Shown piece after piece: positions 2,999 through 32,539 of a DNA stretch of 32,623 bases; positions within the stretch are counted from its first letter, which is position 1; each line of letters opens with the position of its first letter. Under the pieces are notes generated by a model. That model did not search any database. It was not told where the DNA came from and worked only from the letters and a program-made list of their open reading frames with translations. A program made the position numbers and the translations under genes. This DNA is from Phycisphaeraceae bacterium. GTDB taxonomy: Bacteria; Planctomycetota; Phycisphaerae; Phycisphaerales; Phycisphaeraceae. Location: assembly GCA_029260635.1 (NCBI GenBank), contig JAJDCW010000284.1:1-32623 (forward strand), given 5' to 3'.

Positions 2999-3024
2999 TT
3001 CGTTAAACAATCTATAAAACAAAG

Positions 3025-3057
3025 AAGCCCACGTTCGTCGAACGTGGGCTTTCTTTT
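3025..3057. terminator. bidirectional rho-independent terminator between pgi and hisB
   Basis: A perfect 12-bp stem AAGCCCACGTTC / GAACGTGGGCTT (3025-3036 with 3040-3051) encloses the 3-nt loop GTC. On the plus strand it is followed by TCTTTTT, on the minus strand by CTTTGTTTTA. It lies between the convergent stops of pgi (2998) and hisB (3079), so it can end transcripts from both sides. Confidence 0.93.
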
Positions 3058-3078
3058 TATGAAGATCAATAACGATGA

Positions 3079-24744: not shown

Positions 24745-26196
24745 ATGTCATTTAGCGATTTAAGGCTCATCGAGCCCTTGTTGAAGTCCCTGCGCCAAGA
24801 GGGCTACACCACCCCGACCGAGATCCAGGCGAAGACCTTCCCCCACGTCGTGGCGGGCAGGGACATGCTCGGCTGTGCCCAGACAGGGACCGGCAAGACC
24901 GCTGCGTTTGCCCTGCCCATGCTCCAGAACCTGCACACCAGGAAGTCCCATCAACCCAAGAAGCCGACCCAGGGCAAGGCCGCTCGCGTCCCAACGCAGC
25001 GGGTGATCCGTGCGCTGGTGCTCAGCCCGACCCGTGAACTGGCGGCACAGATCGGCGACAGCTTCAAGAACTACGGGCGAAACCTGGATATGCGGGGCAC
25101 GACCATCTTCGGCGGCGTCAACCAACGCCCCCAGGTCCGTGCACTTCAGCAGGGCGTTGATATCGTCGTCGCCACGCCCGGCCGACTGATGGACCTGATC
25201 AACCAGCGGGCACTGACGCTCAACAGCGTCGAGATCCTTGTCCTGGATGAGGCCGACCGCATGCTGGACATGGGCTTTATCCACGATATCCGTAAGATCA
25301 TCGCGATGACGCCCAAGAAGCGCCAGACGCTGATGTTCTCCGCGACGATGCCCAAGAGCATCCAGTCGCTGGCCGACTCGATCCTGACCGACCCGGCGGT
25401 CGTGAAGATCGCCGCCAAGCACGCGACCGCCGACACCGTTCAGCAGTCCGCCTACTTTATCGACCCGCGCAGCAAGGGCATCCTGCTTGGCAAGCTGCTG
25501 GAAGATAAGGTTATGTCACGCACACTGGTCTTTTCGCGCACCAAACGCGGCGCGGACAAGATCACCAAGCAACTGAACAACACGGGATTCACCGCCGAGG
25601 CGATCCACTCGAACAAGACCCAGGGCGCACGCACCAAGGCGCTGCACAACTTCAAGTCCGGGCGGACGAATGTGCTGGTCGCCAGCGACATCGCCGCACG
25701 CGGTCTGGATGTGGATGACATCTCGCACGTCGTAAACTACGACATCCCGGGTGACGCCGAGACCTACGTCCACCGGATCGGCCGAAGCGGTCGGGCCGGC
25801 AACCAGGGGCAGGCGATCACGTTCTGTGCCCACGATGAACGCCGCAGCCTCCGCGACATCGAAAAAACCATCGGCAAGCAGATCACTGTCCTCAAGCACT
25901 CGATCCAGGCACCCCCCCCGGCCCCGTCGGGCGCCGCGATCCGCAGGGCCGCCGAACCGACCGGCCCCCGCTCGACCCGCCCCACCGGCAAGCCCAAGCG
26001 CAGTAAGCGTGGCGGCAAGCCAGGCGGCGCCGCAGCGTCCACCGGTACCGGCGGCAACGCCCGAGCCGGCCGTTCAGCCCGTTCGCGTAAGGCCAAGCCC
26101 AACGCCTCGGCCCACAACAACGCCGGCGGCGGCTCAGCCCGCCCCAAGCGTAACAGCCGAAGCGCCAAGCCCGCCGCCAAGAAGCCACGCTACTAA
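24745..26196 (+). CDS. DEAD-box ATP-dependent RNA helicase, RhlE type
   Basis: An ATP-dependent RNA-unwinding enzyme acting in ribosome assembly or RNA decay. The 483 residues start with a Q motif (FSDLRLIEPLLKSLRQEGY, Gln28 in TEIQAK). Walker A AQTGTGKT is at 45-52, PTRELAAQ follows, the DEAD box is at 168-171, SAT at 199-201 and HRIGRSGRAG at 343-352. All catalytic motifs are intact. From about residue 390 the tail is disordered, very rich in Lys, Arg, Ala, Gly and Pro (GKPKRSKRGGKPGG; SRSAKPAAKKPRY), as in RhlE-like helicases that use a basic tail to bind RNA. The gene has a structured leader and is followed by the three-way junction element. Confidence 0.96.
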   Translation: MSFSDLRLIEPLLKSLRQEGYTTPTEIQAKTFPHVVAGRDMLGCAQTGTGKTAAFALPMLQNLHTRKSHQPKKPTQGKAARVPTQRVIRALVLSPTRELAAQIGDSFKNYGRNLDMRGTTIFGGVNQRPQVRALQQGVDIVVATPGRLMDLINQRALTLNSVEILVLDEADRMLDMGFIHDIRKIIAMTPKKRQTLMFSATMPKSIQSLADSILTDPAVVKIAAKHATADTVQQSAYFIDPRSKGILLGKLLEDKVMSRTLVFSRTKRGADKITKQLNNTGFTAEAIHSNKTQGARTKALHNFKSGRTNVLVASDIAARGLDVDDISHVVNYDIPGDAETYVHRIGRSGRAGNQGQAITFCAHDERRSLRDIEKTIGKQITVLKHSIQAPPPAPSGAAIRRAAEPTGPRSTRPTGKPKRSKRGGKPGGAAASTGTGGNARAGRSARSRKAKPNASAHNNAGGGSARPKRNSRSAKPAAKKPRY

Positions 26197-26248
26197 ACCC
26201 CGCTGGGTTTGGGCGCATACGCCAATACACTTAACGCGCACTCGTCAG

Positions 26249-26302
26249 GTTTAGCCCGGGCGGCCGCGCCCGGTCTGCGCCGCGTGGCCGCGGCGGCTAA
26301 AC
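26249..26302. repeat. 54-nt perfect three-way-junction palindrome
   Basis: The outer stem GTTTAGC / GCTAAAC (26249-26255 with 26296-26302) is 7 bp. Inside, CCGGGCG-GCCG-CGCCCGG (26256-26273) and CGCCGCG-TGGC-CGCGGCG (26278-26295) are two further perfect 7-bp hairpins with 4-nt loops, separated by TCTG. No base is unpaired except the loops and this linker. It lies between the helicase and glycosyltransferase genes, with no U-run after it. Confidence 0.8.
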
Positions 26303-26327
26303 ATTGGGGACGCTATCATCCTTCGTG

Positions 26328-27044
26328 ATGCTGTCATTCATCATCCCCGCCCACAACGAGCAGGACCTCCTGCCACGCACGCTGGAATCGATCCACGATT
26401 CCGCGAAGGCGGTCGGCCAGTCGTACGAGATCATCGTCGCCAACGACGCCTCGACCGACGGCACGACCGAAGCCGCGGAGAAGCACGGGGCACGGGTCGT
26501 GTACGTTGATCACCGGCAGATCTCCAAGACCCGCAACAGCGGCGCGGCCGAGGCCAAGGGGGATATCTTCATCTTCGTCGATGCCGACACGGCGATCAGC
26601 CCGACGCTAGTCCGCGGGGTTATCAGCCACATCGAAGCCGGGGCGGTCGGGGGCGGCGCAGCCATCGGATTCGACGGACGCATGCCCCTCTATGGTAAGC
26701 TATTGATGAAACCCTTCGCGTTTCTCTACCGCCTGGCGGGCTACGCCTACGGCTGCTTCATCTACAGCACACGTGAAGCTTTCGAGGCCGTCGGCGGATT
26801 TGATGACGATCTCTTTGCCGCCGAAGAGATCGCCTTCAGCCGTGCGATGCGGCAGCAAGGCAGGTTTGTGCTTCTAAGTGACCCGGTCACGACCTCGGCC
26901 AGAAAGCTGCGGACCTACTCATTCTTCGAGGCTTTGATGATCCTATTCCGATTCATCATCGGCGGCGGGATGCGTTCGATGAAGTCCCGTGACAAGCTGG
27001 ACCTCTGGTACGGGCCGCGGCGGGATGATACAGATCAGATTTAA
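26328..27044 (+). CDS. family 2 glycosyltransferase
   Basis: A GT-A fold transferase of 238 residues from ATG 26328, where FIIPAHNEQDLLPRTLESI is the canonical first strand and helix. ANDASTDGT binds the nucleotide, FVDADTAISP holds the DxD metal motif, and FDDDLFAAEEIAFSRAMRQQG carries the likely catalytic-base ED/EE motif. A C-terminal hydrophobic stretch (ALMILFRFIIGGGM) may associate with the membrane. The family moves a sugar from a nucleotide or lipid donor; donor and acceptor are unknown. A GTG lies one codon upstream (26325), and no clear ribosome binding site is seen. It faces pheT with 26 nt between stops. Confidence 0.9.
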   Translation: MLSFIIPAHNEQDLLPRTLESIHDSAKAVGQSYEIIVANDASTDGTTEAAEKHGARVVYVDHRQISKTRNSGAAEAKGDIFIFVDADTAISPTLVRGVISHIEAGAVGGGAAIGFDGRMPLYGKLLMKPFAFLYRLAGYAYGCFIYSTREAFEAVGGFDDDLFAAEEIAFSRAMRQQGRFVLLSDPVTTSARKLRTYSFFEALMILFRFIIGGGMRSMKSRDKLDLWYGPRRDDTDQI

Positions 27045-32404: not shown

Positions 32405-32539
32405 AACAGGGATGAACGCAGATAAACGCGGATAAGAAGTCGGGCCTGATACAGTATGCACGGCTCTATCTGCGTGCATCCGCGTTCATCCCTGTTTCTT
32501 TGTATGTCTCTTCTCTACGCCTCTGTGTCTCTGTGGTTA
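32405..32539. repeat. palindromic intergenic repeat, second copy of the 10-bp-unit type
   Basis: The arms 32405-32434 and 32467-32496 are inverted repeats matching at 26 of 30 positions, with 32 nt between. Each arm is made of about 10-bp units: GATGAACGCA, GATAAACGCG, GATAAGAAGT. The right side continues into CTCTGTGTCTCTGTGGTTAA (32521-32540), comparable to the outer arm of the element at 7649-7808; the left outer arm is absent, because dapL begins there. The end of alaS lies in this sequence. Confidence 0.8.

Follow-up and report, generated by a model that had tools for sequence, protein, structure and literature searches.

Which kind of element is a flawlessly paired stretch of 54 nt between two genes of a Phycisphaeraceae bacterium? 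An earlier note, made from the letters of the window (the whole stretch of DNA that was analysed, 32,623 nt), had described it as a perfect three-way junction and had proposed a mobile palindrome, a cruciform at a replication or nucleoid site, or a structured RNA at the 3′ end of the helicase mRNA. The reading favored here, with a probability of roughly 0.8, is a RAYT-mobilized REPIN, that is, a non-autonomous element composed of two inverted REP hairpins with their feet outward.

Fold of the 54-nt element

Read from the window letters, the outer stem GTTTAGC/GCTAAAC encloses arm 1 (CCGGGCG-GCCG-CGCCCGG), the linker TCTG and arm 2 (CGCCGCG-TGGC-CGCGGCG), in this order; the coordinates (Table 1), the three 7-bp stems, the two 4-nt loops and the linker are exactly as first described. 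The window contains no other perfect three-way junction with all stems of at least 6 bp, and none occurs in 20 first-order Markov versions of it. The same letters can be read as two inverted, non-identical halves separated by 4 nt, each consisting of a GTTTAGC foot, a 7-bp stem and a 4-nt loop. The element has the two inverted REPs and the hairpin-type structure of a REPIN, and is a heterodimer (stems CCGGGCG and CGCCGCG) whose halves almost touch. The left-half loop is GCCG in the window, versus GCCA in the consensus of the aligned copies.

Table 1 Features at the locus (window coordinates) and junction elements at second-group Y1 transposase genes (coordinates within the named loci)
Feature	Position	Strand	Basis
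DEAD-box RNA helicase gene, upstream neighbor	24745–26196	+	
Probable degenerate left shell	26212–26248	+	Inferred from by-eye likeness to the conserved 37–38-nt left flank of other copies (AGCGCGAACGCAATCCATCCGTAGCGTGCGGTCACCNG)
Likely REPIN core: inverted pair of REP-type hairpins with a 4-nt gap, foldable as a three-way junction	26249–26302	+	Letters, copies, DNA folding, junction scan
Left REP half: foot GTTTAGC (26249–26255), stem CCGGGCG/CGCCCGG (26256–26262 and 26267–26273), loop GCCG	26249–26273	+	Letters
Linker TCTG separating the halves	26274–26277	.	Comparison of copies
Right REP half, minus-strand reading: foot GTTTAGC, stem CGCCGCG/CGCGGCG, loop GCCA	26278–26302	-	Same hairpin flanks the L317/L325 RAYT gene
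GCTATCATCC, conserved right side of the site (resident)	26312–26321	+	Six-genome site comparison
Family-2 glycosyltransferase gene, downstream neighbor	26328–27044	+	ATG at 26328 consistent with orthologues
Junction elements at second-group Y1 genes	L085 1406–1456, 1994–2040; L163 1542–1592, 2218–2270; L166 1389–1435		

Folding with DNA parameters gives the junction as the minimum-energy structure (-24.3 kcal/mol, 75% of the ensemble), and its energy (z = -3.6) was equalled by none of 200 shuffles. With RNA parameters, by contrast, a rod formed by pairing between the two complementary arms (-36.1 kcal/mol) is better by about 1 kcal/mol than the junction (-35.0 kcal/mol). Since each half is a related copy of the other in inverse orientation, the sequence can adopt either fold. 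In a sister family with CTTG loops, described below, the minimum-energy fold of the single-stranded DNA is the rod and not the junction; the junction form is therefore not general.

Copies, insertion sites and decay

The search for GTTTAGC...GCTAAAC that the earlier note had suggested gave 11 exact outer-stem matches in G000, the genome of the window (3.9 Mb in 344 contigs, 92% complete), and none with a reversed-pattern control, and the family was found in all six genomes of the genus. The sequence is thus not, as had been envisaged for the contrary case, unique in its genome and devoid of conserved pairing in relatives. BLAST recovered 19 full-length copies in G000, together with fragments or halves and split copies with enlarged linkers. 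A covariance model built from the 11 exact copies matched each of the six genus genomes (4–61 matches per genome, most elements scoring on both strands) and also G011 and G027, from the same family; at E ≤ 1e-5, matches occurred in only 13 of the 301 genomes of the order. The many copies are dispersed and mainly extragenic, as judged against ORFs rather than the output of a gene caller. Nearly all share the GTTTAGC foot. The linker, variable in sequence, is 2–4 nt long in most copies but reaches ~35 nt where copies are split and in distant genomes. Single halves also occur, as do pairs that are spaced more widely or arranged in either relative orientation, and intermediate stems and loops are present.

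At the window site, the element begins 52 nt past the helicase stop codon and ends 9 nt ahead of GCTATCATCC. The helicase and glycosyltransferase genes are adjacent in all five congeners, and none of the five carries the element between them; such presence and absence at orthologous sites indicates mobility. G001 carries an independent insertion of the same element (contig C44; L312, 2235–2288), which follows the orthologous glycosyltransferase gene after ~30 bp. All six genus members have a motif like GCTATCATCC a few nucleotides before the start codon of the glycosyltransferase gene (GCTATAATCA in G001). The motif has the look of a -10 box for a leaderless transcript, and in the window the mobile element sits immediately ahead of it. 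Used as a query against the genome contigs, the glycosyltransferase returned distant relatives only. Elsewhere in the window, a 30-nt inverted repeat (87%; AACAGGGATGAACGCAGATAAACGCGGATA) with a 32-nt spacer at 32405–32496 is likely another dispersed palindrome, and an inverted repeat with A- and T-runs between two ORFs at 3010–3066 (CCCACGTTCG/CGAACGTGGG) resembles a bidirectional terminator.

In many copies, conservation extends past the core into imperfect inverted repeats, which span ~127 bp in G001 and are more degenerate in G000; the shell of the CTTG family is an inverted repeat of ~175 bp. The ends read YTAGGCCGGTTT.../...AAACCGCTCTAR in G001 and TATACGGATTCCAGTTAATCC.../...GGATTAACCTGAATCCGTATA in G003 and G001. 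They are imperfectly inverted and often bounded by TA, and show no consistent target-site duplication.

The covariance analysis proposed in the earlier note gave a divided answer. Between subfamilies the stems do covary, with changes on both sides at 11 of 21 pairs (40 cells) against maxima of 10 and 13 in 500 shuffles that ignore the kinship of copies; since related copies are not independent, this result is no more than supportive of preserved complementarity. Within individual copies, breaks are uncompensated: in the CCGGGCG/GCCA family, 37 copies contain 90 pairs that depart from the consensus, of which 61 are broken, 28 are G-T and a single one is a restored Watson–Crick pair. Substitution rates in these copies are similar in stems and loops (0.059 and 0.074 per site, respectively). 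This is the pattern expected if insertions of an element with a mobility-relevant structure decay neutrally, and not if an RNA is maintained; it would place selection on propagation rather than on resident copies.

RAYT genes and matching hairpins

RAYT-type Y1 transposase genes in the family are flanked by units of this kind, each with its own sequence. A cognate RAYT gene flanked by the same REPs is found in a more distant relative, G276, where contig C13 (L317/L325) carries arrays of AGC-CGCCGCG-GCCA-CGCGGCG and AGC-CCCGGCG-GCCA-CGCCGGG on both sides of the gene. The former hairpin is identical in stem and loop to the right half of the window element. The latter has the stem of subfamilies L269/L276, present in G002 and G011; in this stem, CCCGGCG, the order of bases is shifted relative to the left stem of the window, CCGGGCG. 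The L317/L325 RAYT has the motifs DHVH and YVEANP. Because one in-frame TAG interrupts the L317 frame near its start in this assembly, this gene may be decayed. At the L317 locus the same hairpins also make up a conventional REPIN, a foot-outward pair with a 33-nt spacer. The tandem REP array around the gene is large (L317, 2560–3580), with feet GTGAAGC and GTTGAGC and loops GCCA, CCCA and GCAA.

A sister REP type accompanies RAYT genes in G003 and G001. In G003 (contig C149; L106), GTTTAGC-CCGGTCG-CCCG-CGACCGG lies on both sides of the gene, and in G001 (contig C487; L099) a CTTG/CTCG-loop version of the GTTTAGC-CCGGTCG hairpin lies upstream and a degenerate one downstream. The CTTG-type hairpin also makes perfect 52-nt three-way junctions that are dispersed in G003 and G001. 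Both proteins are among the nearest relatives of the L317 RAYT in the window's genus (46% identity for L106 and 44% for L099), and both have the HuH motif and catalytic tyrosine of a single-domain Y1 protein (DHVH, YVxxNP). They score 23–24 bits with PF01797 (cut-off 23) and 42–45 bits with NF047646, below its cut-off of 80.

No RAYT gene with matching REPs was found in G000 itself, in an assembly that is 92% complete and split into 344 contigs. Its three RAYT-like genes are flanked by other REPs; the gene on C218 is a pseudogene, and those on C214 and C300 were ruled out as the cognate gene. Each has its own hairpin family, of the GCTAAGCCGCAAGCGGC (L334, C300), GCTAAACCGCAAGCG (L068, C218, broken) and CCCGGTCATG (L148, C214) types. 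A second group of Y1 transposases, of the HITFGTYGSRLHG type, also has three-way-junction elements at the gene (Table 1), with the different feet CAGAGCC and CGCGAG; in L085 and L163 such elements lie on both sides of it.

A mobile REP dimer and its alternatives

The mobile reading and, with it, the earlier proposal of a REP-like mobile palindrome are supported by the dispersal of the copies, by orthologous sites that lack the element and by the matching hairpins beside RAYT genes of relatives. Identity as a mobile REP dimer is secure; the mechanism we infer is as follows. When the locus is single-stranded, for example as lagging-strand template, the two hairpins would fold. A RAYT, a single-domain HuH/Y1 transposase of the IS200/IS605 superfamily, would recognize foot and hairpin, nick at the feet and move the element or a copy of it to another extragenic position. 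The mechanism predicts that RAYT would cleave GTTTAGC-hairpin single-stranded DNA and carry out strand transfer on it. It is conceivable, although doubtful, that REP hairpins abutted into a compact single-stranded three-way junction with short stems are a selected form of the mobile unit. Such a form might offer a RAYT dimer its two hairpins simultaneously and leave each duplex too short for hairpin-cleaving nucleases, and might have arisen independently with several planctomycete RAYT lineages (GCCA, CTTG, CAGAGCC and CGCGAG types).

Two features of the element count against the REPIN reading, in addition to the lack of a matching RAYT gene in the G000 assembly, the premature stop in the L317 RAYT and the shuffle control that ignores kinship. 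The foot is GTTTAGC (GTGAAGC or GTTGAGC in a distant genome) and not the canonical GTAG/GTGG. This bars the element from the canonical GTAG REPs, but not from the wider REP/REPIN group, because subclass 2.6 and class 3 have non-canonical feet (PMC6006769). The other feature is the shell, since inverted-repeat copies of ~127 and ~175 bp recall a TIR-type MITE rather than a textbook REPIN. On that account, the entire inverted repeat would be moved via its ends by a DDE transposase, with the central REP pair as a captured passenger or apex. The conservation of imperfect terminal inverted repeats around many copies fits this, as does the result that no joined shell without a core was found in G001, where shell and core travel together. 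However, the core occurs in two unrelated shells and, in G011, in no recognizable shell at all, and the same hairpins flank RAYT genes. In passing, no DDE transposase with these ends was met. A TIR-type MITE is improbable.

Less probable by far are the readings in which the resident copy itself is maintained. A structured RNA kept by selection as a 3′-end stabilizer or terminator of the helicase mRNA would suit the position just past the stop codon, the very stable fold and the location of several copies between convergent genes, where REPs can act as 3′-end structures. Against it stand the empty site in five congeners, the uncompensated breaks in the copies and the lack of any match to the curated Rfam models over 26249–26302. 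There is also no terminator-like T-run, in keeping with the earlier view that the fold is not an ordinary terminator. We consider such an RNA very unlikely as the reason for the element's existence, while secondary effects of the element on mRNA are possible. Slimmer still is the chance that the element occupies selected positions and serves replication or the nucleoid as a cruciform or protein-binding site. Nucleoid proteins bind to REPs elsewhere, and a junction is predicted in single-stranded DNA; yet the copies are scattered and decaying, their positions differ between congeners and their numbers vary greatly.

Further candidates were rejected. No classical terminator or promoter was found at the element. 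An integron attC site was considered for the GTTNNNC-like ends; the attC consensus is GTTRRRY, which GTTTAGC does not fit, and no cassette arrays were seen. Likeness to an AAV-ITR-like viral terminus is confined to shape, the consensus occurring in no viral contig and the copies being dispersed and intergenic.

As a REPIN, the element shares with those described by Bertels and Rainey (2011; PMC3116915) the two inverted REPs with feet outward, the capacity to form hairpins, the dispersed extragenic copies and the link to RAYT. It differs in its GTTTAGC foot, its heterodimeric make-up, the longer inverted-repeat shell that often surrounds it and the 2–4 nt between halves in place of a spacer of tens of nucleotides. 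Di Nocera et al. (2013; PMC3733652) described GTAG REP dimers, which are likewise short-hairpin dimers, include heterodimers as well as dimers 1–2 bp apart in Opitutus terrae and have planctomycetes among their hosts; the element here, however, has neither a GTAG nor a CGTC tag. Like the REPtrons with TnpA-REP/Y1 classes (PMC6006769), it is tied to a HuH/Y1 gene flanked by its own genome-repeated hairpin family. Subclass 2.6 and class 3 REPtrons have atypical structures with non-GTAG feet, and class 3 occurs in Planctomycetes; whereas class 3 is characterized by a Y----Q motif, the cognate RAYTs here have DHVH and YVxxNP, are class-2-like and go with a GTTTAGC-type foot. Many copies resemble TIRYT/TIRtron repeats and bacterial MITEs (PMC3733652) in having longer terminal inverted repeats, but are centered on a REP pair that also occurs at RAYT genes.

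Earlier work has described REPINs, REP heterodimers, dimers with partners 1–2 bp apart and Y1 transposases flanked by atypical non-GTAG structures (PMC3116915, PMC3733652, PMC6006769, PMC8266576). In the literature covered, outside which many subscription papers lie, neither a GTTTAGC-foot family nor the tight junction geometry was found described for planctomycetes. The mobile-element reading accounts for a conspicuous perfect fold and extends REP/REPIN biology in planctomycetes to non-GTAG feet and near-zero spacers. The RAYT–REP pairs on G003:C149, G001:C487 and G276:C13 provide test cases for the recognition of paired hairpins by RAYT.
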